Source of the DNA: Deltaproteobacteria bacterium
GTDB lineage: Bacteria; Desulfobacterota; Dissulfuribacteria; Dissulfuribacterales; UBA5754
Length of the DNA stretch: 38,722 bases
Reading direction: 5' to 3'
Assembly: GCA_036574075.1 (NCBI GenBank)
Contig: JAINCN010000044.1
Location: forward strand, 1 to 38,722
The notes under the pieces: generated by a model
Databases searched by the model: none
What the model was told of the DNA's origin: nothing
Seen by the model: only the letters and a program-made list of their open reading frames with translations
Shown: positions 15,254 to 38,157 of the stretch, in pieces
Position numbering within the stretch: position 1 is the stretch's first letter
How the letters are laid out: every line of letters begins with the position of its first letter
Position numbers and translations under genes: made by a program

Positions 15254-17137
<1,884 letters not shown>

Positions 17138-19800: not shown

Positions 19801-19802
19801 AA

Positions 19803-19916: not shown

Positions 19917-20010
<94 letters not shown>

Positions 20011-20020
20011 GTCCGTTTTC

Positions 20021-20470: not shown

Positions 20471-20485
20471 GACCGGCCGGTCCCG

Positions 20486-22241: not shown

Positions 22242-22291
22242 AACAAAAGACGGGTGACGACACCCGATACACGTAAAGGAGGGATTCACGT

Positions 22292-22570
22292 ATGAAAAAG
22301 GGAGTTACCAAGCTGTTTGTCCTGCCTGCCATGGTGTGCGCCCTGGGTCTTGGGGGTTGTGCCGGTCTCAGCAAGGAAGACCGGGATCTCATGAACAGAG
22401 CCATCAAGGCCTCCGAGGATTGCAAGGCCGCATCCGTTTCTGCCAAGAAGGCCGAGGACGCCGCCCTGGCAGCCCAGAGCGCAGCGAACAAGGCCGCTGA
22501 CGCCGCAGCCCGCGCAGAGGCCGCTGCCAACAAGATGGAAAGGATCTTCAACAAGTCTCTCAAGAAGTAG
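22292..22570 (+). CDS. Lpp/OprI-like murein lipoprotein
   Basis: A 92-residue outer-membrane lipoprotein. The signal peptide ends in the lipobox LGGC (Cys23). The mature part is one alanine-rich heptad helix (AKKAEDAALAAQSAANKAAD then AAARAEAAANKMERIF), as in the trimeric Lpp/OprI alanine zipper. It ends in lysine (KSLKK), the position by which Lpp is linked to diaminopimelate. Its place between two L,D-transpeptidase genes supports peptidoglycan attachment. Small size, strong ribosome site and good promoter suggest high expression. Attachment is inferred. Confidence 0.85.
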   Translation: MKKGVTKLFVLPAMVCALGLGGCAGLSKEDRDLMNRAIKASEDCKAASVSAKKAEDAALAAQSAANKAADAAARAEAAANKMERIFNKSLKK

Positions 22571-22576
22571 TCCCTT

Positions 22577-23506
22577 TCACTGTTGTGCGCGGGGGCGGGC
22601 CACCGCCCTCGCAATCCCATCCTTTTTGACCACGGCCTCCTCGAGAACGGCCTCGTCCACCTTGAGGGGGCCGTACATGTTTTCACATGCCTTGAGCCGG
22701 ATGCGTGCCTCTCTGGCCAGGTCGCCTATCTTCCCCTCGAAATCATCAAAGACCTGGATCCAGCACTGCCCATGTGCCCAGCCGATCTTGACGGGTTCGT
22801 AGGTGATGCGCACCATCGTCCCCACAGGTACGATGGGGTAGAGGGTCGCGATGTCCTCTGGATACAGACGGATGCATCCATGGCTCACCCTTCGGCCCAC
22901 CCCCCAGGGCTTGTTGGTTCCATGGATCCCGTAAGCGGACCGAGAGAGGCGGAAGATGAAGTCCCCGAGTGGGTTCTCTGGCCCCGGCGGTACCTCTGCG
23001 GGAAGGGTGGGGTCTTCCTGCCGAATGGACTCAGGCACGTACCACGTGGGCCTGTCTGTCTTGCTCTTGACCATGTAGATGCCAAGCTGGGTGAGAAATC
23101 CCTCCCTTCCGACCCCGATGGGCGCAGTGAGGACGTAGGCATTCATTCCGGCGGAAAAAAAATAATAGAGACGCATCTCGGCCAGGTTGACGACGATCCC
23201 GGAGGCGAGACGGTCCTGGGGCAGGATGTAGATGTCGGGGAGGATAACCATGGTGTCCTTGCCTGGGATCCAGGGGTCCACGCCGGGGTTGGCCGCGGTG
23301 ATCTGGTTAAATCCGAGGTCGTAGTTTCTGGCGATGTCGAGAAGGGTCGTCTCACCGTCAAGTCTGATCCACTGGGGGCTTCCGTAAACGGTCTGTCCTT
23401 CCTCGATGACAAATGACCTCACGGCCTCGGCGCGGCCTTTCCAAATGAGCAGGGGAAGGATAAAAAGAAGGGTCCATGCAATGTAACGGCAAGAAAAGAC
23501 GTGCAT
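22577..23506 (-). CDS. L,D-transpeptidase, ErfK/YbiS type with LysM
   Basis: A 309-residue periplasmic enzyme. The N-terminal signal (YIAWTLLFILPLLIWKGRAEA) is followed by a LysM-like segment (ETTLLDIARNYDLGFNQITA, about 52-71) and the YkuD domain with GIHGT (His195) and SHGCIRLYPED (His209, Cys211). The architecture matches the ErfK/YbiS group that links Braun's lipoprotein to peptidoglycan. The start at 23506 begins MHVFSCRY; the open frame further upstream overlaps the divergent Cys-rich gene. The 3' end is six bases from the Lpp-like gene, tail to tail. Confidence 0.9.
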   Translation of the reverse strand: MHVFSCRYIAWTLLFILPLLIWKGRAEAVRSFVIEEGQTVYGSPQWIRLDGETTLLDIARNYDLGFNQITAANPGVDPWIPGKDTMVILPDIYILPQDRLASGIVVNLAEMRLYYFFSAGMNAYVLTAPIGVGREGFLTQLGIYMVKSKTDRPTWYVPESIRQEDPTLPAEVPPGPENPLGDFIFRLSRSAYGIHGTNKPWGVGRRVSHGCIRLYPEDIATLYPIVPVGTMVRITYEPVKIGWAHGQCWIQVFDDFEGKIGDLAREARIRLKACENMYGPLKVDEAVLEEAVVKKDGIARAVARPRAQQ

Positions 23507-23546
23507 CTTCACTCGTTCTTCCCCGGTGGGGCCTCCTTGATGAAAA

Positions 23547-24068
23547 ATGATCGGCACACAATATACCATCACTGAAAAGATTTCATGGGCCGAGGACATC
23601 TTTTCCCGTTTCGGCGCAAAGATCCTCGAGGATGAGGACCTCAGCCGCCTGCTCCATGGATATGGGGCAGCCATCACGGAGACCTGGGCATGCATGCGGC
23701 AAAGCGGGGTTTCGCGGGTGTGCTGGCACTGCGCCGTCCATGAAGGCGGGAGTTGCTGTGGAAAGGGGATCGAGGACCGGTTCGACGGGGTCCTCCTTCT
23801 CGTGAATCTCCTTCTCGGAGGAGGTCTTCCCGCCTCACGCTGGGACCCAGAGGGCTGCTGGTTTCTCGGTAAACGTGGCTGCACGATCCCTGCCCGGCAC
23901 GTCATCTGCATTAATTATCTTTGTAGGCGCATCACAGACCGAATTCCTCCTGATTCGCTTAGAATGCTACAGGGGCGGATCGGACAGGAGGCGGATTGCG
24001 CCTTTTTTCTCGAGGAGGCCCTGAAACGGTGGCTTGCAAAACAGGATCAGAAGACGAGAAATGGATGA
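23547..24068 (+). CDS. Cysteine-rich conserved hypothetical protein
   Basis: No named family is recognised. It has 173 residues and about ten cysteines, with a central cluster CWHCAVHEGGSCCGKGIE (about 59-76), then CWFLGKRGCTI and CINYLC. The spacing suggests a metal or iron-sulfur site and is reminiscent of YkgJ-type cysteine-cluster proteins, though not clearly the same family. There is no signal peptide. Its 3' end overlaps the following deaminase gene by 40 bases, so the two are probably made together. The start codon lacks a strong ribosome site. Confidence 0.7.
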   Translation: MIGTQYTITEKISWAEDIFSRFGAKILEDEDLSRLLHGYGAAITETWACMRQSGVSRVCWHCAVHEGGSCCGKGIEDRFDGVLLLVNLLLGGGLPASRWDPEGCWFLGKRGCTIPARHVICINYLCRRITDRIPPDSLRMLQGRIGQEADCAFFLEEALKRWLAKQDQKTRNG

Positions 24069-24574
24069 TGCAGGCCCTTGGTCTGGCCCGGGAGTCCCTG
24101 GAAGCAGGTGAGTTTCCCGTTGGATGCGTGCTCGTTGCCGGCGGTCAGATCGTTGGAAGGGGAAGACGCGTAAGGAGTTTCGGCCCGTTTCAGAATGAGC
24201 TGGATCATGCCGAGATGCGGGCCCTTGCGGATATGTCTGGATCGAGGGGTGCGGTCTCCGGGCTTGTCGCATACTCCACCCTCGAGCCCTGTCTCATGTG
24301 TCTCGGCGGCCTCGTCCTGAATGGGGTCAGGCGGATCGTTTACGCCTATGAGGATGTGATGGGAGGGGCATGCGGGCTTTCGCTCTCTTCTGTTCGGTCT
24401 CGGGCCGAAGCGTCGGAGGGGCCTGGTTTCTACATGTCCTTTGGGCTGGAGATCGTCTGTGGCCTCATGCGTGAGGAAAGCCGTGCGCTCTTAGCGGCCT
24501 TTTTTTCGGATCCGAAGCGGGAGTATTGGAGGGGAAGCCCGCTTGCGCGTCACGCCCTTGGGGGGACCCCATGA
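24029..24574 (+). CDS. TadA-like cytidine/adenosine deaminase-fold protein
   Basis: A zinc deaminase of 181 residues if GTG 24029 is used. This start has a GAGGAGG site at ideal distance; ATG 24065 is an alternative. The motifs are DHAEMRAL (catalytic Glu) and TLEPCLMCLGGLVLNGVRRIVYAYED. The C-terminal half differs from the tadA product at 20021, and this paralogue lacks the [12 protein letters not shown] context, so the substrate may be a free base or nucleoside rather than tRNA. Its stop overlaps the next start (ATGA). Confidence 0.8.
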   Translation: MACKTGSEDEKWMMQALGLARESLEAGEFPVGCVLVAGGQIVGRGRRVRSFGPFQNELDHAEMRALADMSGSRGAVSGLVAYSTLEPCLMCLGGLVLNGVRRIVYAYEDVMGGACGLSLSSVRSRAEASEGPGFYMSFGLEIVCGLMREESRALLAAFFSDPKREYWRGSPLARHALGGTP

Positions 24575-25620
24575 GTCCTGCGGATCCCGTGTCTGTGACC
24601 CGGAGGACCGTCGAGTTCCACGCCGGGACGAAAAACCTCTTCTTTCACGTCCTCACCCAGTGCAACCTGCGCTGTCTTCACTGTTACATCGATCCCTCTC
24701 AGCACGGCCGCTCCGTCCTCGGCCTCAGGGTCATGGAGCAGTGGCTCAGGCTCTTTGGGAACCGCTTCAGGGACCCTGCGGAGGCGAACGTGGTATTTCT
24801 CGGGGGCGAGCCCACCCTGAATCCAGATCTTCCGGCGGCGATCAGAGAGGCCCGGAGGATCGGATACCGTTCTATCACCGTGGATACCAACGGCTTTCTT
24901 TTTCACGATTTCCTCGACCGCGTCTCACCCGAGGACCTGGACTTTCTGAGTTTCAGCCTGGACGGATCCTGCCCTGAGGTGAACGACCGCATTCGGGGTG
25001 AAGGGGTCTTCGGAACCTGTGTCCAAGGGATCGAAAGGGCTGTTGCACGCGGTTTTCCCGTGAGTGTCATCTTCACGGCAAGCCGCCTGAACCTGGGGGA
25101 TCTCTCCAACATGCCTGCGCTCCTCACGGAGCTTGGTGTCACGCGGTTCTTCATCCAGGTGGTTGGGATTCGGGGACGGTCGGCCCTGGAATCGCGGGAG
25201 GCAGGAAGGGATCTCCAGGTCCCCCGCTCCGAGTGGGACGCCGTAGTCCCCGGTGTCGCTCGGCATGCCGCACGCCAGGGGCTTCTCGTCACCTATCCCA
25301 CGGTCTTTCTCGCGCCGGACGCGCCCTTTTCCTGCGCAGGGCTCGTGGCGGAGAACTATTTTGTCTTTCCGAACGGGCGGGTCTATCGTTGTCCTTTATG
25401 CGAGGACTATCCGGTACACTCGCTGGAGCTTAGGGACGGCTCCTTGAGCGAGCGGCCTCCCATCACCGAAAGGGAACTTTTCCCACTTCGAATACCAGAG
25501 GGATGCATTATGAACAGGATCCTCCAACCCGGAAACATCCCTTACGGCCCGGACGGTGAGCCCACAGCGCGAATCGCCTGCTGCATGCTCAAGGAGGAGG
25601 TCCGGCGAGAAGACGCGTGA
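24571..25620 (+). CDS. Radical SAM protein with C-terminal Cys cluster
   Basis: A 349-residue radical SAM enzyme. The 4Fe-4S motif is CNLRCLHC (Cys31, 35, 38) after a TQ. GGEPTLNP is the SAM glycine motif, and SFSLDG lies further on. At the C-terminus a second Cys set (SCAGL, YRCPLCEDYP, GCIMN, CCMLK) and the YFVFPNGRVYRCPL line resemble an auxiliary-cluster (SPASM-like) region. The substrate is unknown. It is translationally coupled to the deaminase upstream. Its 3' end overlaps the convergent transporter gene by 32 bases. Confidence 0.85.
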   Translation: MSPADPVSVTRRTVEFHAGTKNLFFHVLTQCNLRCLHCYIDPSQHGRSVLGLRVMEQWLRLFGNRFRDPAEANVVFLGGEPTLNPDLPAAIREARRIGYRSITVDTNGFLFHDFLDRVSPEDLDFLSFSLDGSCPEVNDRIRGEGVFGTCVQGIERAVARGFPVSVIFTASRLNLGDLSNMPALLTELGVTRFFIQVVGIRGRSALESREAGRDLQVPRSEWDAVVPGVARHAARQGLLVTYPTVFLAPDAPFSCAGLVAENYFVFPNGRVYRCPLCEDYPVHSLELRDGSLSERPPITERELFPLRIPEGCIMNRILQPGNIPYGPDGEPTARIACCMLKEEVRREDA

Positions 25621-26635
25621 GGTCGGGTTCCCGGTCGAGGAGGCCGTGGTCCGCAAGGATCCGTGCAGTCTCTTTCCATGCCTCTTTATCGATCGTGCCC
25701 ACGGATCTCCCCGGCGGGGCCACGAGGGGCCGTGTCGCCGAGATCTGCTCGGCGATGAGCCCCGGCCGGGTCTCGGGATCTCGAAGTCGGACGATCTCCA
25801 CGGCTGCATCGAGGTTTTGAGGGGCCATGGCCTCTTGCCAGCCCTCTATGACCGCTTCCGTGAAGGCGCGGACCTTTTCATCCTGCGTCTCATAAAACGT
25901 GCGCGACGTGATGAGGGAGTTGGCGACAAAAGAGATACCCGCTGAGCCCGGGTCGAAGAACCCGGCCCGCCCCCCGTTTGCCCGGATCTTTTCTGCGAGA
26001 ACCACCCCTTCCACGTTTCGATAGATCGGCCAGAGATCCACCTCCCCCTTCCAGAAAGGGGAGTAATCATAATGAACGGCGTACAGTCTCACGTCCTGAT
26101 CCGTGATCCCATAGCGTTCCATGAGGGCCGAAAAGATGGCCTCGTCGTTTCCACCGTAGGTGATCCCGATGCATCGGCCCTTCAGGTCTGAAACGTCTCG
26201 CACCGTGAATCTCGTTTCGTCGTAGATCCACTGGAGGGGATTGGCCTGAAAGATCTGGGCGAGGACCACGATGTCCGCCCCTTTCCCCGCGGCCTGAAGG
26301 ATCTGATCGGCCGAGGCGATTCCGAACTGGGCGCGACCGAGTTCGATCTCCTTGATGGCGTTGTGCTCCACGCCTCCCTCACTTAGCGCCACCTGAAGCC
26401 CGCGCCTCTCAAAGCCCCCTTTGTCGAGGGCCCAGAGTTCTCCGGCTGTGCTTGCGTTGAAGAGCCATTTTAGGCGGAGCGTCAGGACCTTCGGGCCTTC
26501 ATCCCGTGTCTTGTGTGCGTCACAGGCGGAAAGGGCCCCAAAAAGGCAGGCGATAAGGCACGAAAAGAGAAAGACGGCCCACTGATTCGGGCCGGGATCG
26601 GGTGATGGGGCGTACGTAATCGGCAGTAGAGTCAT
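25589..26635 (-). CDS. ABC transporter substrate-binding lipoprotein, NMT1/THI5-like
   Basis: A 348-residue extracytoplasmic solute-binding protein. The signal ends in a lipobox LSAC (about Cys38). The mature start LRLKWLFNASTAGELWALDKG and GVEHNAIKEIELGRAQFGIASADQILQA are typical of the NMT1/SsuA/THI5-like fold, which binds sulfonates, pyrimidine precursors and similar small molecules. The ligand cannot be read from sequence. Its ATG overlaps the stop of the permease gene (ATGA), giving the order ATPase-permease-binding protein on the minus strand. Confidence 0.88.
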   Translation of the reverse strand: MTLLPITYAPSPDPGPNQWAVFLFSCLIACLFGALSACDAHKTRDEGPKVLTLRLKWLFNASTAGELWALDKGGFERRGLQVALSEGGVEHNAIKEIELGRAQFGIASADQILQAAGKGADIVVLAQIFQANPLQWIYDETRFTVRDVSDLKGRCIGITYGGNDEAIFSALMERYGITDQDVRLYAVHYDYSPFWKGEVDLWPIYRNVEGVVLAEKIRANGGRAGFFDPGSAGISFVANSLITSRTFYETQDEKVRAFTEAVIEGWQEAMAPQNLDAAVEIVRLRDPETRPGLIAEQISATRPLVAPPGRSVGTIDKEAWKETARILADHGLLDREPDLTRLLAGPPP

Positions 26636-27399
26636 ACAGGGGCATCCTCAACCGGATCGAGCCTCTTCTGGACCACCTGTCCCAAGAGCTCGATGAGCGA
26701 TATATAGAGGGAAGAGAATAGCCCGATGAAAAAGAGCGAGACAAGGATGTGGGCGAGATTGCTTTGATACAGGGCCTTACGAATGACGTATCCGATCCCG
26801 TTCGTGGCCACGAGGAATTCGGCTACGATGCTCCCTACCATGGCCATGGTCCCGCTTCCCGCGATCACTGCGAGGATCTTCCCCGCGTTTTCGAAGACCC
26901 GTATGCCAAGGGCGAGCCTGCGTGTGAGTCTCCCTGTCATGGAGAAGAAATGTTCCACGTCTTCCACCGGTTGGGCGAAGATCCCGATGAATGTGAGGAG
27001 AAGGGGAAAATAACAGACCAGAGAGGCGACGAGGATCCGCGATAGGACGCCGTCTCCGAGGAAGATGAAGAGGATGGGGGCAATGGCCACCACAGGAAAG
27101 GCCTGGAGGTTGTAGGCGGCTGTCTTTGTGAGCGCGCCGAGAAAGGAACGTGAGCTCCCCACGAAGGCGACGATGACAGCGAGAAGGATGGAAAATCCAT
27201 GGCCTGCTACGGCCACGGCGGCCGTGTCCGCGACGGCCTCCGTATAGCGCCAGCCGTTTTCGGCGGCTGTGGCAAGGAGTTCGCCAGCCGATGGGATGAG
27301 ATAATCGGAAAGCCGAAAAGCGGCCTTGATCCCGAGGAGCCCTCCGATTCCACAGCCATAGATGAGGAGGAATTCGAGGATGCGGCTGAGAAGTTTCAC
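26632..27399 (-). CDS. ABC transporter permease (BPD inner-membrane type)
   Basis: About 255 residues with six predicted membrane helices. The cytoplasmic coupling loop FENAGKILAVIAGSGTMAMVGSIVAEFLVATNGIGYVI matches the EAA motif region of SsuC/ThiX-like permeases. The GTG at 27399 forms a GTGA overlap with the ATPase stop; a GTG four codons upstream (27411) is also possible. It is coupled at both ends to its partner genes. Confidence 0.9.
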   Translation of the reverse strand: MKLLSRILEFLLIYGCGIGGLLGIKAAFRLSDYLIPSAGELLATAAENGWRYTEAVADTAAVAVAGHGFSILLAVIVAFVGSSRSFLGALTKTAAYNLQAFPVVAIAPILFIFLGDGVLSRILVASLVCYFPLLLTFIGIFAQPVEDVEHFFSMTGRLTRRLALGIRVFENAGKILAVIAGSGTMAMVGSIVAEFLVATNGIGYVIRKALYQSNLAHILVSLFFIGLFSSLYISLIELLGQVVQKRLDPVEDAPV

Positions 27400-28112
27400 G
27401 TGGGTACCCACAATGAGGCCGCCTGGATGATCTGGAAGGCCTTTTTCTGGAGGACGGGTTCGTCTTTGAAGGGAGGTGTGGAGAGATCGAGGCCGTTGAC
27501 AATGCCCGAGATGACGGCAGAACCGAGGTGCGCCTGGGAAAGGACATAGACGGTTCGGGAAAAGGCGGCCACTTCCAGGACGTTGTGGGAGATATAGACG
27601 ATCATCCTGTCGGAAAACCGGCCTTTTACAAGGGACAGGATTCGGTGCCTTAGGGGTTCGTCCACGTTTGCGAGGGCCTCGTCCGTAATGAGGAGGTCAA
27701 AGTCCTGGACAAGATACCGGAGGAGGTTCACCCGGTTTTTCTGGCCGAGGGAGAGGGTGCGAAACCGATGGGACAAAAGCGCGGTGAGCCCGAATTCTTC
27801 GGAAAGCTCCCGGAGGAGTCCCTGCCTATCCTTCGAGGTGACGCGCTCCATGTGCTCCCCGATGGAGAGCCAGCCGGGCAGGCGCTCCTGGTTGTGACAG
27901 TAAAGGGCCTTACGAATGCCGGCCTTTCTGATTTCGCCGTCTGACGGGGTGGCAAGTTCGCACAACAGCCGGGCGAGCGTCGTCTTGCCTGTCCCTGAAA
28001 GGCCGAAAAGGGAGAAAAAGCCCGGTCCCTGGATGTCCATGTCGAGTCCTAAGATAACGGGAGTCTCGGACTCCGGGTAGGAAAACGTGATGTTGCGGCA
28101 GGAGACGAACAT
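27396..28112 (-). CDS. ABC transporter ATP-binding protein
   Basis: A 238-residue nucleotide-binding subunit. Walker A is GLSGTGKTT (37-45), the signature is LSLGQ (120-124, a variant of LSGGQ), Walker B is LLITDE (140-145), and the switch His is in YISHN. The region after the Q-loop (CHNQERLPGW) fits SsuB/TauB-like importers. It starts the three-gene transporter unit. Residues match an active ATPase despite the altered signature glycine. Confidence 0.92.
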   Translation of the reverse strand: MFVSCRNITFSYPESETPVILGLDMDIQGPGFFSLFGLSGTGKTTLARLLCELATPSDGEIRKAGIRKALYCHNQERLPGWLSIGEHMERVTSKDRQGLLRELSEEFGLTALLSHRFRTLSLGQKNRVNLLRYLVQDFDLLITDEALANVDEPLRHRILSLVKGRFSDRMIVYISHNVLEVAAFSRTVYVLSQAHLGSAVISGIVNGLDLSTPPFKDEPVLQKKAFQIIQAASLWVPT

Positions 28113-28208
28113 CAGATGGCGGGATCGTGGCTCACATGCCTTTGGCCCGGAGGGCCGGACCCTGTAAGGACAAGTGCTGGGCGCCGCAAAGGAGGCTTGG
28201 TAACCGTT

Positions 28209-29099
28209 TCAGGCCCCTCGGGGCTTTATTTTGGGGAGCTGTTGAGGTTGCTTCCTGGCCTTTCGGATACGCTTCACTTCCCTTTCGAGGACCTCCTTTT
28301 TGATGGAGAGGACAGGTGTCTCAGCCCCGAATACGGCCGATTTCAGGTATTCAAACCCGAAGGTCATGAGTTCGGCGTCGTCTTCGAGGATCTTTTTGAG
28401 GGTCTCCTCCTGGACATCGTAGGTGTCGAGGAATCGACTTTCAAAGACGTAGCTCCTGAACTTCTCCATGTTGGTCGTGACCATGAAGAAGAGTGCCCGT
28501 GCTTTCTCCGGCATCTCCGTGTGTTCCCCGAAAGACTTTTTCCGCAAGATGAGTTCCATCCATCCTCGATTCATGGAATCATAAAGGTCGGCCTCCTGGT
28601 CGGCCCTCCAGCCGTCCACGGTCCACACGGTCTGCTCATCGAATCCCTTGCAGTGATCTTCCTTGACGAGGAAGAAGAACTCCTCTTCCTCGCCGCCCTT
28701 TTTTTCCTTCTGGATGAGGCTTGCCATCCCGATGGGATAGTACCTGCAGCAGACGGGGCGGTCTGTGTAGATCCGACAGCCCTCGGCACTCACGAACGGG
28801 CAACGTCCGTCTTCTTCCTCCAGCATCTTGAGGCGGACGACGGGAACCCGGGCCTCGGCGAGCATCTCCGCTTGGGTGTAAAGGGCGAGAAAGAGGTCGG
28901 AGGTGAGGCCGAGCCGTCGCTTTATACGAATGATGTCGTAGGGAGTCAGGATGATGTCCATGTTCCGGCAGCATCTTGTAAAACACGGGACACCTGGATG
29001 ACAGCGGAACTGGAAGGTGCTTTTTCGTTCAAGCTGGACCGGCTGGATGACGCGGGAGAGCGCCTCGTCGGCCTTTTTTCTCGTATCGATAATGGACAT
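28209..29099 (-). CDS. YkgJ-type cysteine-cluster protein
   Basis: A 296-residue cytosolic protein with a Cys-rich N-terminal half. CHPGVPCFTRCC (about 33-44) and GRCPFVSAEGC...RPVCCRYYP (about 97-122) are the CxxxxC/CC pattern of the UPF0153/YkgJ zinc-or-iron cluster family. The C-terminal half is charged, helical and not recognised. The function is unknown. It stands alone between the transporter and mobA, 48 bp from mobA on the same strand. Confidence 0.8.
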   Translation of the reverse strand: MSIIDTRKKADEALSRVIQPVQLERKSTFQFRCHPGVPCFTRCCRNMDIILTPYDIIRIKRRLGLTSDLFLALYTQAEMLAEARVPVVRLKMLEEEDGRCPFVSAEGCRIYTDRPVCCRYYPIGMASLIQKEKKGGEEEEFFFLVKEDHCKGFDEQTVWTVDGWRADQEADLYDSMNRGWMELILRKKSFGEHTEMPEKARALFFMVTTNMEKFRSYVFESRFLDTYDVQEETLKKILEDDAELMTFGFEYLKSAVFGAETPVLSIKKEVLEREVKRIRKARKQPQQLPKIKPRGA

Positions 29100-29146
29100 G
29101 GGAGATACTGGAAATTTTTCGCAGTTTTGGTGATGTTAGTCCATGT

Positions 29147-29779
29147 TCACACATTCGGCAACACATCTCCCTCGGCCTTTTTTCGCAGGGATTCCAGTTC
29201 CTGCCACGTATTGGCGTTCGCAAGAAAGGAAAGATCGGGAGAATAGAGAGAGAGTTCCGATTCCGAAACGGGTCTGAGGGGGACGGACTGCAGGAGTTCC
29301 CGAACGCTTCGAATCCCTCGATCGAGGGCGAGTACAATTACAGGTGCAAGGGATACGTGATAGATGGCATGGAGGGGCTCGATCCCCCTCGACGTGACGG
29401 GCAGGACGACGGGTGCCCACGTGGTGATCCTCCACATGTGATCCATGACCTCGGGGAGAATGCACGGCATGTCGCAGCCGAGGACGAAGACGCGGTTTGC
29501 CGGGGCGATCTCAAGGGCGGCCAGGATGCCAGAAAGCGGGCCTTTCCCAGGATGGGTGTCATGTATGATGATTGCGGGGAGATCCGTATAGGCGCACGAG
29601 TCGTTTGTCACGATGTACACGGCCTCTGATACCCGCCATGCCGTATTTACGATATGGGCGATGACGGATCGCTGCCCCCATGGGGCAAGGGCCTTGTTCG
29701 AACCGAAACGGGAACTTTTCCCCCCGGCCAAAACGGCAGTTATGCGGATCTCATCGGAATGTGCGTGCTTTTTTTTCAT
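29147..29779 (-). CDS. mobA: Molybdenum cofactor guanylyltransferase
   Basis: Attaches GMP to molybdopterin to make the bis-MGD cofactor of many molybdenum/tungsten oxidoreductases. It has 210 residues. The nucleotide-binding start AVLAGGKSSRFGSNKAL (about 15-31) and VLGCDMPCILPEV (about 98-110) are diagnostic; GIEPLHAIYH follows. Cofactor for enzymes such as formate dehydrogenase is inferred. It diverges from the apr promoter; no other molybdenum-cofactor gene is adjacent. Confidence 0.92.
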   Translation of the reverse strand: MKKKHAHSDEIRITAVLAGGKSSRFGSNKALAPWGQRSVIAHIVNTAWRVSEAVYIVTNDSCAYTDLPAIIIHDTHPGKGPLSGILAALEIAPANRVFVLGCDMPCILPEVMDHMWRITTWAPVVLPVTSRGIEPLHAIYHVSLAPVIVLALDRGIRSVRELLQSVPLRPVSESELSLYSPDLSFLANANTWQELESLRKKAEGDVLPNV

Positions 29780-29868
29780 GATATTCGAAAAGTGCGGAAA
29801 GGTACGGAAAGATCAGGCATCCTGGGTGGGCAAGGCGGGAAATCGGACCCAAAAAAGTAGATCCTCTC
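29780..29868. other. Non-coding DNA between mobA and the apr promoter
   Basis: I see no gene or clear site in this stretch apart from the presumed mobA leader on the minus strand. Confidence 0.4.
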
Positions 29869-29897
29869 TTGACAACTTTCCCCAGAGTTTTTATAAA
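29869..29897 (+). promoter_or_regulatory. Near-consensus sigma70 promoter for the apr locus
   Basis: TTGACA (29869-29874) and TATAAA (29892-29897) are separated by exactly 17 bp, six of six and five of six matches. It points to aprBA and would give a leader of about 570 bases that contains the decayed sat. It is the strongest promoter-like sequence seen in the window. Confidence 0.75.
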
Positions 29898-30050
29898 TCC
29901 GGGACTGAGTGAGCATTCAGTTTTATCCGGGGTTCTGACATCTTGGGGCGCCCAGGGTTTAGGAATTTTCTTCTACGGTTTCGATCCTCTCACCTTGCTG
30001 CATCCACGCTGTCATTGTTTCAAAAATACCTGAAAGGAGCGAAAAGGGCT

Positions 30051-30221
30051 ATGGCACTGGTCAAACCACATGGTTCTAAAGAACCTTCTTGCCTCTTCTC
30101 CTTACGGGCGTTGCCCGTGACGACGAGGCCAAGCGCGCTGAGAAGAAGATGAAGCGCGTGAGGACCCGGTGACGTGCTCAAGCTCGGGATGGGGGCCTTT
30201 ACCCCTCTAAATGGTTTCATG
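30051..30221 (+). pseudogene. sat: Decayed bacterial-type sat (5' remnant) upstream of aprB
   Basis: An ATG at 30051, with an AAAGGAG site a little upstream, opens MALVKPHGSKE, the start of bacterial dissimilatory Sat (compare M-KLVxPHGGK). A frame change near 30086 continues as LPLLLTGVARDDEAKRAEKK then MKRVRTR and a stop. A second change at about 30168 restores GDVLKLGMGAFTPLNGFM, which matches the conserved GxIxMLGIGGFTPLxGFM block. Homology then fades; the catalytic QTRNPxH and GRDHAG regions are gone. It is therefore a non-functional relic of a different sat type from the intact gene at 17756, in the ancestral sat-aprBA position. Confidence 0.85.
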
Positions 30222-30474
30222 GTGAAGGCAGCACCTACCCCAAGGCAAGGAAGACAGGATCGTCGTGAGGAGCACCAAGTTCAGGAGGCCCATGTGTGAG
30301 GGTGGCGATGTGCCCACAGCCAGAATCTGACGGAGAAGGTCACCATCAAAAAGGGTGCCTTCGAGGATCTGCCGAAGTAGAGGAAAAGGTTGTTCTGGCG
30401 GGGTCGTGACGAGTGCGGCCCCGATACACGTCAAAAACGGGATTACACCCGAAATCAAAAAAGGAGGTAAAACG
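30222..30474. other. Unexplained DNA between the sat relic and aprB
   Basis: No gene is recognised. Short protein-like runs occur in changing frames (for example EDRIVVRSTKFRRPMC from about 30249, LTEKVTIKKGAFEDLPK from about 30328), suggesting further decayed coding DNA, but I cannot match them. It ends with the AAGGAGG ribosome site of aprB. Confidence 0.4.
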
Positions 30475-30912
30475 ATGCCAAGCTTTGTCAACCCCGAAAA
30501 GTGTGACGGTTGCAAGGGCGGTGAGAAGACAGCGTGCATGTACATCTGCCCCAACGACCTCATGGTTCTCAATCCCGACACCATGAGGGCCTACAACCAG
30601 GAGCCGGATCAGTGCTGGGAGTGTTATTCCTGCGTGAAGATCTGTCCCCAGGGCGCCATCGAGGTCCGTCATTATGCCGACATCGCCCCCATGGGAGGTT
30701 ATGTCCAGCCCATGCGTGGAACCGATTCCATCATGTGGACCGTCAAGTTCCGTAATGGCAACATGAAGAGGTTCAAGTTCCCCATTCGGACAACTCCTGA
30801 AGGCTCCATCAAGGCTTATGCGGGAAAGCCTACTGGCGGAAACCTGGATGACGGGCTGCTCTTCACCGAGTCTCCCGGGCGTGCCAACTGCAAGCCTTCT
30901 GACTTCAGCTAA
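30475..30912 (+). CDS. aprB: Adenylylsulfate reductase, beta subunit
   Basis: Ferredoxin-like subunit carrying two 4Fe-4S clusters that pass electrons to the FAD of AprA. The start at 30475 (MPSFVNPEKC) follows AAGGAGG; the open frame upstream is not coding. It has 145 residues. The cluster motifs are CDGCKGGEKTACMYICP (about 10-26) and CWECYSCVKICP (about 47-58). The C-terminal tail (TPEGSIKAYAGKP...DDGLLF) that wraps around AprA is present. It is followed 59 bp later by aprA. Confidence 0.98.
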   Translation: MPSFVNPEKCDGCKGGEKTACMYICPNDLMVLNPDTMRAYNQEPDQCWECYSCVKICPQGAIEVRHYADIAPMGGYVQPMRGTDSIMWTVKFRNGNMKRFKFPIRTTPEGSIKAYAGKPTGGNLDDGLLFTESPGRANCKPSDFS

Positions 30913-30971
30913 GTCGCTCATTGTAACAAACTGGAAAAACACACAAAAATATATCCAAGGAGGAATATACA

Positions 30972-32978
30972 ATGGCACTTCCGAACAAGCCAAATTGGGA
31001 ACTGCTTGCCGAGCCGGATCTGTCCAAGGTCCCTGTTCAGGAGTTTGAATACGACGCCCTGATCGTGGGTGGTGGTATGGCCGCCTGCGGTGCCGCCTAT
31101 GAGATCGGTCGCTGGATGCCCGCCGGCTCCAAGGTGTGTCTCGTAGATAAGGCCGCTCTCGAGCGTTCCGGCGCTGTTGCCCAGGGTCTTTCGGCCATCA
31201 ACACCTACATCGGCGAGAACACCCCTGCCGATTACGTCCGCATGGTCCGCAACGACCTCATGGGCATCGTCCGCGAGGACCTCATCTTTGACCTCGGCCG
31301 TCACGTGGACGATTCCGTCCATCTTTTTGAGGAGTGGGGCCTTCCCATCTGGAAGAAGCACGGAACCGATCAGAGCAAGAAGCTTGTCGAGGGCGGCGAG
31401 CCCGTCCGCACCGGTAAGTGGCAGATCATGATCAATGGCGAGTCCTACAAGTGCATCGTGGCTGAGGCCGCCAAGGCCGCGCTCGCCGAGATGGGCTACG
31501 ACCTCCATGAGAGGGTCTTTATAGTCAAGCTCCTTCTTGACGCCAACAAGCCCAATACCATCGCTGGCGCCGTTGGATTCAGTGTCCGCGAGAACAAGAT
31601 CTGCATCTACAAGGCAAAGGCCATCATGGTAGCATGCGGCGGTGCAGTCAACATCTTCCGCCCCCGCTCGACCGACGAAGGAAAGGGCCGTGCCTGGTAT
31701 CCTGTCTGGAACGCCGGATCCACCTACGCCATGTGCATGCAGGTGGGCGCCGAGATGACCATGATGGAGAACCGTTTCACCCCGTCCCGCTTCAAGGATG
31801 GCTACGGCCCGGTTGGCGCGTGGTTCCTTCTCTTCAAGGCCACGGTTACTAACGGTAAGGGTGAGCATTACTTAAAGAGCGATGCCGCCAAGGCAGAGCT
31901 ACAGAAGTACGCCCCCTACGGCTTGGCTCCGGTTATTCCAACCTGTCTCCGGAACCATCTCATGCTTTTTGAGATGAAGGAAGGCCGTGGTCCTGTCTAT
32001 ATGGATACCGCCGCCGCCCTGAAGTCCTTCATGGATGCCAAGAAGGCCGAGGGCATGGGCGATAAGGAACTCAAGAAGTACTGGAAGGAGCTCGAGAGTG
32101 AGGCATGGGAGGACTTCCTTGACATGTCCGTGGGTCAGGCCGGCCTCTGGGCCTCCATGAACATCGAGCCTGAGAATGTGGGCTCTGAGATCATGCCCAC
32201 CGAGCCCTACATGCTCGGCTCCCACTCCGGTTGCTGTGGCATCTGGGTCTCTGGTCCGGATGAGGACTGGGTCCCAGATGACTACAAGATCAAGGCCGAC
32301 AATGGCAAGGTCTATAACCGCATGACCACGGTCAACGGCCTCTTTACCGCTGGTGACGGCGTAGGTGCCTCTGGGCACAAGTTCTCATCCGGATCCCATG
32401 CAGAAGGCCGTATAGCTGCCAAGGCCATGGCCCGCTACGTGCGTGACCATGCGGACTTCAAGCCCACGCTCAAGCAGTCCGCCGACGAGCTCAAGGCCGA
32501 GATATACAAGCCGGTTGTTACGTATTATGCGAACTACCAGAAGACCACGCACGAGATGGTCAACCCCAACTACATCAAGCCTCGCCATCTTTCCGAGCGT
32601 ATGATGAAGTACACTGACGAGTACGGAGCAGGATGGTCTCCGTACTACATGACCAACGGGAAGCTTCTCGAGATTGTCATGAGGCACCTTCAGTGGATGC
32701 GTGAAGACTCTGAGAAGCTTGCAGCCGCTGGACTTCACGAGCTTCTCAGGGCGTGGGAAAACTACCACAGGATCTGGACGGTCGAGTCTCACCTCCGCCA
32801 TATCCAGTTCCGCGAAGAGACCCGGTATCCTGGATTCTACTATCGCGGTGACTTCCCCAAGGCCGATACAAGGCCCATGGAAGAGGGTGGATGGTTCTGC
32901 TTTGTGAACTCGAAGTACGATCCTGAAAAGGGTGAGTGGTCCGTCTTCAAGAGGAAGCTCCATAAGATTATTCCGTAA
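30972..32978 (+). CDS. aprA: Adenylylsulfate reductase, alpha subunit
   Basis: FAD subunit of APS reductase; catalyses APS + 2e- to sulfite + AMP in the cytoplasm, and the reverse in sulfur oxidation or disproportionation. The 668-residue length is full. Near the N-terminus DALIVGGGMAACGAAYEIG (about 27-45) is the FAD-binding fold. Further on are SGAVAQGLSAINTYIGENTP (about 66-85), GSHSGCCGIWVSGPDEDW, and TTVNGLFTAGDGVGASGHKF, which are characteristic of AprA. A GGAGG site precedes the ATG. It has the common aprBA order; a terminator follows. Direction of flux cannot be read from sequence. Confidence 0.98.
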   Translation: MALPNKPNWELLAEPDLSKVPVQEFEYDALIVGGGMAACGAAYEIGRWMPAGSKVCLVDKAALERSGAVAQGLSAINTYIGENTPADYVRMVRNDLMGIVREDLIFDLGRHVDDSVHLFEEWGLPIWKKHGTDQSKKLVEGGEPVRTGKWQIMINGESYKCIVAEAAKAALAEMGYDLHERVFIVKLLLDANKPNTIAGAVGFSVRENKICIYKAKAIMVACGGAVNIFRPRSTDEGKGRAWYPVWNAGSTYAMCMQVGAEMTMMENRFTPSRFKDGYGPVGAWFLLFKATVTNGKGEHYLKSDAAKAELQKYAPYGLAPVIPTCLRNHLMLFEMKEGRGPVYMDTAAALKSFMDAKKAEGMGDKELKKYWKELESEAWEDFLDMSVGQAGLWASMNIEPENVGSEIMPTEPYMLGSHSGCCGIWVSGPDEDWVPDDYKIKADNGKVYNRMTTVNGLFTAGDGVGASGHKFSSGSHAEGRIAAKAMARYVRDHADFKPTLKQSADELKAEIYKPVVTYYANYQKTTHEMVNPNYIKPRHLSERMMKYTDEYGAGWSPYYMTNGKLLEIVMRHLQWMREDSEKLAAAGLHELLRAWENYHRIWTVESHLRHIQFREETRYPGFYYRGDFPKADTRPMEEGGWFCFVNSKYDPEKGEWSVFKRKLHKIIP

Positions 32979-33016
32979 GGATTGGGGTTGAATCCTTGCG
33001 AAATCTGTAATAAATG

Positions 33017-33053
33017 AGGTGCCAGGCGCTTAAAGGGCGCCTGGCACCTTTTT
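33017..33053 (+). terminator. Rho-independent terminator after aprA
   Basis: AGGTGCCAGGCGC (33017-33029) pairs perfectly with GCGCCTGGCACCT (33037-33049) around a seven-base loop, followed by a T-run. It separates aprBA from qmoABC in transcription, at least in part. Confidence 0.92.
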
Positions 33054-33161
33054 GATATCCCCTGGAGGCAGCGTTCCGCGGGCTCTCTGTGTAAGCAGGT
33101 AGGCCGCGGGCCACTGGACGGGTGGTCGATAAAAATTTTTTAACGGAAAAGGAGCGGGCAG

Positions 33162-34409
33162 ATGAGTAACAGCATCCTTGTCATAGGTGGCGGTTTTAGC
33201 GGCCTTACTGCGGCCGTTGAAGCAGCCGAAATGGGCTACGATGTCTACATCGTCGAAAAGGAGCCATATTTGGGGGGAAGGGTGGCGCAGTTGAACAAAT
33301 ATTTCCCCAAGATGTGTCCTCCCACATGCGGACTCGAGATAAATTTCAAGCGGATCAAGACGAATCCCCGCATCACCTTTTATAGCCTGTCCACCGTCGA
33401 GTCAGTGACGGGATCCGCTGGCAATTTCTCCGTCAGGCTGAAGGTGAACCCCAGGTACACCACCCCTCAGGCGACAAACTGCAAGCCCGGAGTCGATGTC
33501 GCTACGAGTGAGTTTCCCAATGATTTCAACTTCGGCCTCAACACGCGCAAGGGGATCTACATGCCCCATCCCATGGCCTTCCCGAATCAGTGCGTGGTTG
33601 ATGCACGGGTGGCAGGCACTGATGAAGGCAAGAAGATCCAGCAGGCCATGCCTGCAGGACATGTGGATCTAACTCAGACGGCCGAGACCGTGGAGCTTAC
33701 GGTTGGGTCCATTATCGTTGCAACCGGGTGGAGGCCCTATGACGCCACGAAATTGGATCGCCTCGCCTTTGGGAAATTCCCCAACATCGTTACGAACATG
33801 ATGGTGGAAAGGATGGCCTCGCCATCCGGTCCCACAGGTGGGAAGATCGTCAGGCAGTCCGACAAGGCCGAGCCGAAAACAGTTGGCTTTGTGCAGTGTG
33901 CCGGTTCTCGCGACAAGGACCACCTTCCCTTTTGTTCCTATATCTGCTGTAATGCCACATTGAAGCAGACTCTGTATCTGAGGGAACAGAATCCTGATAC
34001 GGAAATATATGTATTTTACATCGATATTCGTTCGCCTGGCCGCAAATATGAAAATTTTTACGCCAAGGTAAAGTCCGATCCCAAGGTACATTTCATCAAG
34101 GGAAAGGTAGCCGAGGTAAAGCCCGGGCAGGGCACAGATAATGTCATCCTTGTCGCTGAGAATACTATCGGAGGAGGCAAGATCGAGCAGGAGGTAGAGC
34201 TTGCAGTCCTTGCCACCGGTATGCAGCCGACCGGTGCCATCGAACCTATTGCTGGCATAGAGTATGATTCAGACGGCTTTGTCGTCCCAAGGGAGGGTAT
34301 CATCCCCTGTGGATGCGCCAAGAGACCTATTGATGTTGTTTCATCCGCACAAAGCGCAACTGCAGCAGCCCTGAAGGCTGTGCAGACAATTGTCAGGAGG
34401 GCAGGCTAA
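33162..34409 (+). CDS. qmoA: Qmo complex subunit A (HdrA-like FAD protein)
   Basis: QmoABC is the membrane-bound quinone-interacting oxidoreductase that exchanges electrons with APS reductase. QmoA is a soluble FAD flavoprotein related to HdrA of 415 residues. The dinucleotide fold ILVIGGGFSGLTAAVEAAEMG lies at about 5-25. KMCPPTCGLEINF (about 51-63) is a Cys motif near the flavin. VGFVQCAGSRDKDHLPFCSYICC (about 246-268) is the HdrA-type cysteine region, and the C-terminus holds VLATGMQP. An AAGGAG site precedes the start. Its stop overlaps the qmoB start (TAATG). Confidence 0.96.
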   Translation: MSNSILVIGGGFSGLTAAVEAAEMGYDVYIVEKEPYLGGRVAQLNKYFPKMCPPTCGLEINFKRIKTNPRITFYSLSTVESVTGSAGNFSVRLKVNPRYTTPQATNCKPGVDVATSEFPNDFNFGLNTRKGIYMPHPMAFPNQCVVDARVAGTDEGKKIQQAMPAGHVDLTQTAETVELTVGSIIVATGWRPYDATKLDRLAFGKFPNIVTNMMVERMASPSGPTGGKIVRQSDKAEPKTVGFVQCAGSRDKDHLPFCSYICCNATLKQTLYLREQNPDTEIYVFYIDIRSPGRKYENFYAKVKSDPKVHFIKGKVAEVKPGQGTDNVILVAENTIGGGKIEQEVELAVLATGMQPTGAIEPIAGIEYDSDGFVVPREGIIPCGCAKRPIDVVSSAQSATAAALKAVQTIVRRAG

Positions 34410-36718
34410 TGTCACGAAAGATTGGTGTTTATATCTATACAGGTGACGGGATCGGTGAGGCTCTTGATGTAGAGAAGCTTACCGAAGTGGCGACTGAGTC
34501 GGGCGCTGCCGTAGTGCGAACGCACGCGGATCTCTATTCACCCGACGGTGTTGCCATGGTGAAACAGGATATTGAAGGCGAGGGTGTCAATGCGATCGTT
34601 CTTGCTGGAATATCCCCTCGTTATGAATACAAGACGTTCGACTTTCCCGGTGTCATCCTGGAAAAGACGAGCCTGCGCGAGCTTGTTGTCTGGAGCCATC
34701 CTGTTGCCGGTGATGACGAAAAGGCGAAGGAGCATGTCCAGGAACTGGCCGAAGACTATATACGCATGTCCGTTACTAAATGCAAAAAGGCGCAGCTTCC
34801 TACTCCAGACAAGATGGAGGCTCCGAGTAAGCGGATTCTTGTTATAGGGGGTGGCATCACCGGCCTTACTGCGGCACTTGAGGCAGCTGAGGCAGGCTTC
34901 GAGGCCACCATTGTTGAAAGGGAGGGGGAACTGGGTGGCTATGCTGCAAAGCTCCGCAAGCAATTTCCCGTAGGGCCTACCTATTCCGAGCTAGTTTCTC
35001 CAATGGTGCAGGATCTCATCTCGAAGGTAAAGTCCAACTCTAAAATTCAAGTACTTACGTCCACCGAAATAGCTCGTATCAGCGGTGTCCCCGGTCGATA
35101 CCGTGTATCCATGAAACCTACAGGTACCAAAAGCGAGTGGGATGCCCCAGTTCCCCTTACGCCTGAGGAAAAACTCGACGCGTCAGGAAACGAACTCTCT
35201 GCAGAGGACCAGAAAAAGGTCTATGCGGCAAAGAACGAAGGCCGAAAGGATTACATGATCGAGAATACGGATGCCGAGATCTTTGGCGCTGTGATCGTCG
35301 CAGCTGGCTGGAAACCTTATATCCCCCGGGATGGCGAGTTTGCCCATCTTGGATGGGGAAATCCCAACGTTTTAACGAACCACCAGTTCGAGGAGATAGC
35401 GAAAAAGGGAAAGATCGTACGCCCATCAGATGGCAAGGAGGTGAAGTCCGTTGCCTTCATTCAGAGCCCTGGGGCCACGGAAGACGACGCAGACTTTCCC
35501 TATGCATCTGCGGTTACGAGCATGGTATCTCTGAAGCAGGCCAAATATCTTAGGGAAGATCAGCCGGCTGATGGACGTGCATATGTGTTCTATCAACATA
35601 TGCGTACTCCAGGTCAATATGAGTATTTTTACAAGGGCCTTCAGGATGATGTGGGTATTTTCCTGACAAAAGGCGCTGTGACAGAGGTAAAGGATAACGG
35701 CCAGGGTGGTCTCTCCGTTACCGCGACGAAGACCATACTCGGAGAGGACGTCGTGGTGGACGTGGATCTCGTTGTCCTTGCCACTGGCATGGTCCCCACA
35801 ACAAGGGATGAGGCGGTGGTGAATCTTGCGTATCGTCAGGGGCCGGCCTTCCGCGACCTTGATCTCTTCGGCGGTTACTGCGATTCCAACTTCATCTGTT
35901 TCCCTTACGAAACACGGCGGACAGGTATCTACGCCGCTGGAGCCGTTCACCGTTCTATGAATATCGAGGAATCCATGGAGGATGCTGCTGGCGCAGTGCT
36001 CAAGGCCATCCAGTGCATAAAGGCCGCGGAGGAGGGCCATGCCGTTCATCCTCGAACATGGGATTTTGATTATCCTGATTTCTATTTCCAGAGGTGCACC
36101 CAATGCAAGCGCTGTACTGAGGAGTGTCCCTTCGGAGCCCTGGATGACGACGAGAAGGGTACCCCCAAGCCTAACCCAACGCGCTGCCGCAGATGCGGAA
36201 CATGCATGGGAGCGTGTCCTGAGCGAATCATCGGGTTCAAAGACTACAACATCGATGTTGTCGGATCCATGATCAAATCCGTCGAGGTCCCAGACGATGA
36301 CGAAGAAAAACTTCGCATGATCGTCTTTGCCTGTGAAAACGACGCATATCCGGCCTTGGACATGGCTGCAGCCAAAGGTCTTTCATGGTCGCCGCTGGTC
36401 CGTATCATTCCGGTCAGGTGCCTCGGATCGGTCAATGTGGCATGGATCAAGGACGCCATGTCAAGCGGTATGGACGGCGTCCTGCTTCTCGGCTGCAGGT
36501 TTGGCGATGACTACCAGTGCCACTTCGTCAAAGGCAGTGAATTGGCGAATCGTCGAATGGAAAACGCCGCTGAAACCTTGAAGTCTCTGGGCATGGAGCC
36601 GGAACGCGTCACTCTTGCCCAGGTGGCTATCGACGAGTATGATAAGGTTCCCGGCATTATAAATGAGTTCGTCGAAGGAATCCTTGGACTCGGACCAAAT
36701 CCGTTCAAGGGTTTCTAA
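34409..36718 (+). CDS. qmoB: Qmo complex subunit B (HdrA-like, MvhD-fused)
   Basis: A 769-residue flavo-iron-sulfur subunit. An N-terminal domain (about 1-140) precedes the FAD fold ILVIGGGITGLTAALEAAEAG (about 145-165). Further HdrA-like sequence is followed by two 4Fe-4S motifs: CTQCKRCTEECPFGALD and CRRCGTCMGACPERIIG (about 563-610). A C-terminal MvhD/HdrD-like domain (IVFACENDAYPA, GVLLLGCRFGDDYQCHF) takes electrons via further cysteines. The Cys motif near the flavin of QmoA (CPPTCG) is replaced here by a cysteine-free stretch, as usual for QmoB. It is coupled to qmoA. Confidence 0.96.
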   Translation: MSRKIGVYIYTGDGIGEALDVEKLTEVATESGAAVVRTHADLYSPDGVAMVKQDIEGEGVNAIVLAGISPRYEYKTFDFPGVILEKTSLRELVVWSHPVAGDDEKAKEHVQELAEDYIRMSVTKCKKAQLPTPDKMEAPSKRILVIGGGITGLTAALEAAEAGFEATIVEREGELGGYAAKLRKQFPVGPTYSELVSPMVQDLISKVKSNSKIQVLTSTEIARISGVPGRYRVSMKPTGTKSEWDAPVPLTPEEKLDASGNELSAEDQKKVYAAKNEGRKDYMIENTDAEIFGAVIVAAGWKPYIPRDGEFAHLGWGNPNVLTNHQFEEIAKKGKIVRPSDGKEVKSVAFIQSPGATEDDADFPYASAVTSMVSLKQAKYLREDQPADGRAYVFYQHMRTPGQYEYFYKGLQDDVGIFLTKGAVTEVKDNGQGGLSVTATKTILGEDVVVDVDLVVLATGMVPTTRDEAVVNLAYRQGPAFRDLDLFGGYCDSNFICFPYETRRTGIYAAGAVHRSMNIEESMEDAAGAVLKAIQCIKAAEEGHAVHPRTWDFDYPDFYFQRCTQCKRCTEECPFGALDDDEKGTPKPNPTRCRRCGTCMGACPERIIGFKDYNIDVVGSMIKSVEVPDDDEEKLRMIVFACENDAYPALDMAAAKGLSWSPLVRIIPVRCLGSVNVAWIKDAMSSGMDGVLLLGCRFGDDYQCHFVKGSELANRRMENAAETLKSLGMEPERVTLAQVAIDEYDKVPGIINEFVEGILGLGPNPFKGF

Positions 36719-36730
36719 GGGAGGAAAACC

Positions 36731-37963
36731 ATGGCTGAACTGCAGAGGGTGCAGCCCGATCTCTCCTTCATAAAGGGTGTCATGGAGTCGGGTGGGGAAA
36801 CCGTCAAGCGCTGTTATCAATGCGCGACATGTTCCATTGTCTGCCCACTCTCCACGGAAGAGAGCCCTTTTCCGCGTAAAGAAATGCTATGGACCCAGTG
36901 GGGCCTGGCAGGGAAGGTTTCTGGGGATGTGGATGTCTGGCTCTGCCACCAATGCGGTGACTGCAGCAAGTATTGTCCACGCGATGCCCGTCCGGGAGAT
37001 GTCCTCGGTGCCATCCGGGCCAATGCCATACGTTATTACGCTGAGCCAAAGTTTCTCGCTGACATGTTAAGCAAGCCGAGTGGCGTGGTCGGTGCAGTAA
37101 TTGCGGCCATGGTCATTGTGCTCGTGGTTGCCGGCCTGTGGTCCCAGGTGTCGGGAGAGGCATTTCCCTTCCCGGAGGGGGATGTAGTGTATCACAAGTT
37201 CTTGAGCGTCATTCCTATTGACGCTATTTTTCTGAGCCTGGTTGGTTTTGTGGTTTTTATTTCATATCGCGGAGTTGTGAATTTCTGGCAGGACATAAGC
37301 AAGGGAGCGGGCCTTCCCAAGTCCTTCACAGGGACTTATCCAGCCCCCCCTATAGGGGTCCTTGTGGCACAGTATGTGTGGCCATCAATCCTTGAGATTT
37401 TGAGCCATACCCGCTTCAAGAAATGCGGCCAAACGGCCGAGCGGGCCAAGGGACATCTCTGGGTATTGTGGTCCTTTATCATCCTCTTTGTCGTAACCAA
37501 CTTCGTCTTCATTGCAGAGGACATGTTTCATGCCGCTCTTGGATTGATCGGCCCCGTCACTCCCATGCCCCAGTATCATCCTGTAAAGATCCTTGCCAAC
37601 ATAGGAGCGATCATGCTGGTTGCAGGTATCTGGATGATCAAGGCCATGAGGGATCAGAAGACCGAAGAGGGAGTCCTGCACAGTTCTTCGCAGGATTGGA
37701 TCTTGATATGGCTCATATTTGCAGTTGGGGCAACAGGCATTGCTTCAGAGCTTTTCCGTCTTATCAATGTGGCTCAGATAGCCTATCCCGTTTATGTTTC
37801 CCACCTCGGATGTGTGGCAGTGCTCTTCCTTTCCGTTCCGTACACAAAGTTTGGACATCTTGTGTATCGAACAACTGCCTATGTATTTGATCGCTGGGCC
37901 AAGGATGTGAAGGCGGGCAAGGCGGGCTTCGGCCTTGAGAAGGCGATTGGATCCGACCATTGA
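36731..37963 (+). CDS. qmoC: Qmo complex subunit C (HdrC/E fusion, membrane heme b)
   Basis: A 410-residue subunit. The N-terminal HdrC-like domain has two 4Fe-4S motifs, CYQCATCSIVCP (about 28-39) and CHQCGDCSKYCP (about 73-84). A C-terminal membrane part with about six helices (starting VVGAVIAAMVIVLVVAGL near 118) contains His residues that may hold heme b and the quinone site. A GGGAGGAAAACC leader precedes the ATG. It links the soluble AB subunits to the quinone pool. It is the last gene of qmoABC, 12 bp after qmoB. Confidence 0.96.
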   Translation: MAELQRVQPDLSFIKGVMESGGETVKRCYQCATCSIVCPLSTEESPFPRKEMLWTQWGLAGKVSGDVDVWLCHQCGDCSKYCPRDARPGDVLGAIRANAIRYYAEPKFLADMLSKPSGVVGAVIAAMVIVLVVAGLWSQVSGEAFPFPEGDVVYHKFLSVIPIDAIFLSLVGFVVFISYRGVVNFWQDISKGAGLPKSFTGTYPAPPIGVLVAQYVWPSILEILSHTRFKKCGQTAERAKGHLWVLWSFIILFVVTNFVFIAEDMFHAALGLIGPVTPMPQYHPVKILANIGAIMLVAGIWMIKAMRDQKTEEGVLHSSSQDWILIWLIFAVGATGIASELFRLINVAQIAYPVYVSHLGCVAVLFLSVPYTKFGHLVYRTTAYVFDRWAKDVKAGKAGFGLEKAIGSDH

Positions 37964-37986
37964 TGTCTTTATACACGATGATGATT

Positions 37987-38018
37987 AAAAGGGCGGCTCA
38001 TAAACCGCCCTTTTTTTT
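37987..38018 (+). terminator. Rho-independent terminator of qmoABC
   Basis: AAGGGCGG (37989-37996) pairs with CCGCCCTT (38005-38012) around CTCATAAA and is followed by a run of eight T. It closes the qmo transcript. Confidence 0.93.
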
Positions 38019-38157
38019 AGGACAAATCCTCGCCTATGAAATATGATTCTAAAACGGGATCTTACCTTCAAAGATCTGGTCAAAAAGATCAGGTTACAAA
38101 GGAAAAGAAGGTTCACGCTGTTGAGACGGGGTGTAGGATTTTTTGGCTTTATCACCC

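Follow-up and report, generated by a model that had tools for sequence, protein, structure and literature searches.

A pseudogene of the native ATP sulfurylase at the head of the aprBA-qmoABC operon of a Dissulfuribacterales bacterium and its probable displacement by an archaeal-type homologue

Upstream of aprB in a bacterium of the order Dissulfuribacterales, we identified the remains of a gene for a bacterial-type dissimilatory ATP sulfurylase (Sat), denoted satB here, and, elsewhere on the same contig, an intact gene of a different, archaeal type, satA. Judged from its sequence, the segment at 30051-30380 is a pseudogene of satB, and the best explanation of its nature is that it is a unitary pseudogene, the former first gene of the ancestral operon, mobA | sat-aprBA-qmoABC, of this lineage of Dissulfuribacterales. 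It appears very likely that the native satB decayed after a horizontally acquired cassette, consisting of satA and a gene for a DUF6955 protein, took over its role. The succession from satB to satA would belong to an established class of events, xenologous gene displacement, in which a native gene is replaced by a horizontally acquired homologue, here caught mid-erasure. All positions refer to the window, that is, the 38,722-nucleotide stretch analyzed, which is the entire contig C44 (JAINCN010000044.1) of a 1.99 Mb assembly in 66 contigs (GCA_036574075.1, hereafter G000) that is 99.9% complete.

The satB relic and the apr-qmo operon

The relic consists of two parts, both on the plus strand. 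The 5' part (30051-30229) starts with the original ATG and, in the alignment to satB of the congener (G001), covers codons 1-64, which are spread over three frames, with frameshifts, stops, and a 14-bp gap. About 860 bp are deleted between this part and the 3' part (30230-30380), which was delineated by tblastn and nucleotide alignment and corresponds to codons 355-385 and 400-419, approximately, with a second gap of about 40 bp separating the two blocks. The 3' part matches the Sat C-terminus (..KEDRIVVRSTKFRRPMCEGGDVP.. and QNLTEKVTIKKGAFEDLPK-stop, at about 30231-30380) and ends with an in-frame stop, TAG, at 30378-30380. The disabling lesions, then, are of several kinds: frameshifts, stops, and the large deletion.

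A sequence-only reading of this DNA had proposed that three frame-shifted pieces located between a near-consensus promoter and aprB represent the Sat N-terminus, and this proposal is borne out. In a tblastn comparison with the Sat of the congener, the relic region scores 51.6 bits, far above the maximum of 26.6 bits in 2000 Markov shuffles of that region, with Sat matches in three frames as well as in a C-terminal part, and the DNA alignment of the region with the congener sat locus yields an E value of 1.6e-132. As to the extent of the relic, that reading was right on the N-terminal part but missed the C-terminal part with the 3' end and stop codon. For every piece of the relic, the best match among the 13 relatives compared is G001. 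A search of the whole G000 assembly, with its nearly full completeness, detected no intact bacterial-type satB, in line with the suggested loss of the gene.

In G001, the only congener compared, with an assembly that is 83% complete, an intact, 419-codon bacterial-type satB occupies precisely the site of the relic, between mobA and aprB. The gene order in this genome, mobA-sat-aprB-aprA-qmoABC, is common to most genomes of Dissulfuribacterales, which supports the earlier interpretation of the relic as a fossil of the sat-aprBA-qmoABC order that has lost its first gene; in another member of the order (G006), sat-aprB-aprA-qmoABC are located on a single contig. The window is collinear with G001 from 19917 to 38027, mostly at 88-91% nucleotide identity. 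The neighborhood of the relic includes, in this order, radC, genes for a YkuD protein, a radical-SAM protein, and an ABC transporter with an NMT1-type binding protein, an unknown ORF, mobA on the minus strand, the promoter, the relic itself, aprB, aprA, qmoA, qmoB, and qmoC. The mobA gene (29147-29779, minus strand), which encodes a MobA-like NTP transferase (PF12804), is the syntenic upstream neighbor of sat in the order and adjoins sat or aprB in G001, G004-G007, G010, G013, G015, G017, and others. On the plus strand downstream of the relic, aprB (30475-30912; PF12139 and ferredoxin-type domains), aprA (30972-32978; collinear with G001, 93% amino acid identity), and qmoA, qmoB, and qmoC (33162-37963) are all intact.

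The promoter, TTGACA-17-TATAAA (29869-29897, plus strand), was read in the sequence; a generic promoter scan did not pick it up, as the final base of the second hexamer is A. It is nevertheless real, as the sequence-only reading had held: the element CTTGACA(A/T)TT..AATATAAA is kept upstream of sat or aprB across the order, whether sat is present or not. To all appearances, this is the former promoter of satB that is now the promoter of aprBA-qmoABC. Just 3' of the -10 hexamer lies an imperfect palindrome, ACTGAGTGAGCATTCAGT (29904-29921), a probable operator or regulator site. A similar ACTGAG..ATTCAGT element occurs in the same place across the order, and the palindrome ACTGAGTG..ATTCAGT is kept there with or without sat. 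In family f5, the stretch from the apr promoter to aprB contains a hairpin (GCACAATGG..CCATTGTGC or similar) with a T run behind it, which resembles a terminator and is possibly an attenuator, in G013 (locus L055), G019 (L056), and G005 (L059).

The substitutions in the relic reflect relaxed constraint. Compared with G001, the relic shows 9, 7, and 18 differences at codon positions 1, 2, and 3, against 28, 15, and 199 in aprA and 8, 3, and 39 in aprB. Positions 1 and 2 hold 16 of the 34 differences in the relic versus 43 of 242 in aprA (Fisher p=5e-4, pairwise), and their share in the relic is also higher than in qmoA (p=0.004) and aprB (p=0.02). Polarization with three outgroups places 11 of the 15 changes on the relic branch, a small sample, at positions 1 and 2, as expected once constraint is lost, versus 2 of 6 on the G001 branch. 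At third positions, the relic has diverged by 20%, which does not exceed the 27-30% of the neighboring genes. This divergence and the modest excess at positions 1 and 2 jointly suggest, from small numbers, that satB remained in use over much of the branch and that its death is fairly recent.

The satA-DUF6955 pair and its site

The G000 assembly contains two other ATP sulfurylase genes, satA and a Sat-APS kinase fusion on contig C20, the latter outside the DNA available to the sequence-only reading and present also in G001 and several relatives. The intact satA gene (17756-19114, plus strand; PF01747 and PF14306) is of the archaeal (Archaeoglobus/Thermodesulfobacteria) type, as indicated by the tree as well as by the active-site and Cys motifs: its product combines complete PF01747 and PUA_2 domains with the conserved motifs HQTRN..HxxH, GRDHA, and CxxC..CxH (zinc-type Cys/His). 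It is about 31-33% identical to bacterial-type Sat proteins, and the earlier statement that the intact sat is of a clearly different type holds, with approximately 32% identity to the bacterial-type Sat of the congener and a distance of 10.9 kb from the relic. The relatives of satA belong to Thermodesulfobacteriota, including Thermodesulfobacteria, to Archaeoglobi, Nitrospirota, and Bacillota, and to Caldivirga, and in the tree, the G000 gene itself is on a long branch (0.15), without a close donor. Given that the type is common to Thermodesulfobacteria and Archaeoglobi in the tree, satA would be of foreign origin, and it presumably is the dissimilatory Sat of G000.

The constant partner of satA is the gene for a DUF6955 protein (19149-19505, plus strand; PF22271), in the position of ORF2 of the Archaeoglobus sat operon. 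In each of the 80 public loci surveyed (L106-L185), from archaea and bacteria, archaeal-type sat is immediately followed by a DUF6955 gene, after which aprBA most often come next. The AlphaFold model of DUF6955 is confident (pLDDT 92.5), and the comparison of the model with solved structures gave no match below an E value of 3 in Foldseek and none above a Z score of 2.6 in VIA-align. A weak sequence similarity over 50 residues to a Roco protein (E 1.7e-4) was judged to be due to chance. In a literature search, we found no paper that names DUF6955.

In G000, satA and DUF6955 sit between gidA and a tRNA-Ser(CGA) gene (19917-20010, minus strand), which forms the right border of the satA segment and is the point where collinearity with contig C59 of G001 starts. 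The segment has a lower GC content than the surrounding DNA, and the GC3 of DUF6955, 0.38, is the lowest among the 26 genes of the window. The GC3 of satA, 0.61, is not exceptional; because it falls within the range of qmoA-C, GC content gives weak support for the transfer of satA and was rejected as proof of it. A dispersed palindromic repeat of about 180 bp is found in the window at 250-389, 7020-7194, 17422-17490 (a fragment, to the left of satA), and 19626-19803 (a copy of roughly 180 bp, to the right of DUF6955), so placed that the last two bracket the satA-DUF6955 pair; G001 contains dozens of copies, on both strands. A 104-bp repeat at 17525-17628, which may mark where a mobile element close to the satA insertion ends, recurs in contig C35 of G001 and, within G000, at the ends of contigs C43 and C63. 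The G001 assembly stops inside gidA and is without counterparts of window positions 16396-17524 and 17629-19625. With this gap at the site, the absence of satA from G001 does not date its arrival, and we therefore do not consider this genome clean proof of the newness of satA.

Recurrence in the order and the course of the displacement

Among 46 genomes of Dissulfuribacterales, satA is found in 9, native satB in 24, another bacterial-type sat in 7 (in family f2 only), and none of these in 6. The 24 satB genomes include two with a partial or split gene, G009, where it runs into a contig edge, and G030 (C24:693-1948; L198), where the native-type satB has one frameshift and is otherwise intact, being either a recent pseudogene or the product of an assembly error. 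The satA genomes are distributed over four families (f1, 1, namely, G000; f5, 3; f9, 2; f2, 3), and in all nine, satA is accompanied by DUF6955 and intact satB is absent. Conversely, the satA subfamily is missing in the 24 satB genomes, of which the congener has the assembly gap at the satA site, and satA is found together with native satB or the other bacterial-type sat in none of the 46 genomes. In five of the satA genomes (G005, G013, G019, G018, and G025), the region upstream of aprB was readable and shows satB erased, with the apr promoter CTTGACA..AATATAA and a similar palindrome downstream of it kept. No satB relic was detected by tblastn and blastn upstream of aprB in these genomes and in G022, and in whole-genome searches of the order, relic matches came from G000 only, with no readable relic elsewhere.

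G004 has an intact satB and also a distant archaeal-type sat (41% identity to satA) with DUF6955, and therefore, co-residence of the two Sat types is possible; in this genome, satB-aprBA-qmo and the divergent pair are about 20 kb apart on contig C3 (L034/L035). The second bacterial-type Sat of the seven f2 genomes (L013, L014, L017, L030, and L032), which is 54-58% identical to native satB and is encoded apart from apr, is apparently another replacement of the native gene.

Direct evidence of insertion comes only from the genus of G025 and G035, where satA and DUF6955 are 81-83% identical to those of family f5 and are bordered on both sides by DNA with 70-73% identity to a near-contiguous stretch of the satB-bearing G023, which points to transfer of the pair into that genus. 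The loss of satB appears to be a recurrent pattern in the order, with the same swap made several times, rather than a single event. Tentatively, one could go further and propose that the sat slot at the head of apr-qmo is repeatedly emptied as a mobile satA-DUF6955 unit keeps entering other sites and outcompetes the native Sat, with the operon promoter always retained and DUF6955 being a required functional partner.

For G000, we envisage a scenario in which the two-gene cassette would have arrived by horizontal transfer between gidA and the tRNA-Ser gene, satA would have taken over the interconversion of sulfate and APS, and the native satB, thus freed, would have decayed through frameshifts, point changes, and the deletion of roughly 860 bp. 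The operon promoter and the ribosome-binding site of aprB would have stayed under selection, and the old promoter would now transcribe aprBA-qmoABC via a long untranslated leader that holds the fossil. We infer the mode of insertion of the cassette, the role of satA in carrying the dissimilatory flux, and the arrival of satA before the death of satB, this order of events because a Sat is needed.

An alternative that seems unlikely, without being far-fetched, is that the common ancestor of G000 and G001 had both satA and satB, and that after a long period of redundancy, G000 lost satB whereas G001 lost satA or still has it, hidden by the gap. The incompleteness of G001, with the gap in the gidA-satA region, would accommodate such a history, as would the two Sat types housed by G004 and the similar divergences of satA and aprA between families: at the DNA level, G000 is 78-80% identical to f5 and f9 in satA and 78-82% in aprA, so that transfer into f1 does not follow from divergence by itself. 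Against long redundancy, 0 of the 24 satB genomes contain the satA subfamily, and the satA sites differ among families f1, f5, and f9. The opposite course of events, in which satB died first, the Sat-APS kinase fusion on C20 covered for it, and satA restored the capacity later, is quite improbable. The fusion is indeed at hand in G000 and G001, but in several genomes, it occurs beside satB or satA and therefore is no substitute for either there, and the loss of Sat before its replacement would come at a cost to energy metabolism.

Nor do we give much weight to explanations that do away with the death of the gene or with the idleness of its remains. G000 is a draft genome in 66 contigs, and the frameshifts and the deletion might, in principle, be assembly errors or reflect a strain chimera, with an intact satB in the organism; this possibility is hardly credible given that the relic site is well inside the contig, that several independent lesions of different kinds are concentrated in 330 bp whereas mobA, aprB, aprA, and qmoABC are all open, and that assembly errors would not produce the loss of the codon-position bias seen among the substitutions. 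It is also very improbable that the relic is maintained as a functional leader, in the form of a 33-residue ORF or a regulatory RNA that controls aprBA: the relic still has its original ATG and ribosome-binding site, but its changes look neutral, and relatives without sat have short, unrelated leaders between the promoter and aprB. Displacement of satB by the acquired cassette thus remains the reading that we favor.

Relation to known systems

Conflicting trees are the usual basis for inferring that a core gene of energy metabolism has been replaced by a distant homologue. In the present case, the DNA displays a native gene in decay, the living orthologue of that gene in a sister species, the gene that presumably took over, and relatives where the erasure has run to completion, so that the order and tempo of such gene swaps become directly testable. 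It follows, too, that a tree of Sat cannot be taken for a tree of the sulfate-reduction pathway. DUF6955, moreover, comes to the fore as an unstudied companion of the archaeal-type Sat. A phrase search of the literature retrieved no report on lateral transfer of sat.

Compared with the sat-aprBA-qmoABC operon of Dissulfuribacterales, for example, that of Dissulfurimicrobium hydrothermale (LGS26_04225-04250), the G000 locus has the same gene order, the same upstream mobA, and the same promoter, but the first gene is a pseudogene. SeepSRB2 has been assigned to this order as well (PMC10553843). As in xenologous displacement generally, the native gene appears to have given way to a distant member of its enzyme family encoded at a different locus, and the distribution among relatives is patchy; unlike in the usual case, the displaced gene of G000 is still readable in place. 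The replacement of dsrAB in Archaeoglobus was inferred from phylogeny (PMC10504309), whereas in the present case, the decayed gene, its intact counterpart in the congener, and the presumed successor can all be seen in the DNA. Among solved ATP sulfurylases, those of the same family as satA include PDB entries 8a8d (Methanothermococcus), 4dnx, and 1jhd (bacterial); the nearest is the Methanothermococcus structure 8a8d (206 bits), and none is close. The order of satA and DUF6955 is that of the Archaeoglobales loci, at 66-71% identity for Sat and 37-47% for DUF6955. The arrangement in Archaeoglobus fulgidus is Sat-ORF2-AprAB (PMC3949148), where ORF2, judging by its position, is likely to be DUF6955, strain VC-16 being outside the 80 loci. 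In contrast to that arrangement, the G000 pair is detached, and aprBA belong to their own bacterial operon 11 kb away.
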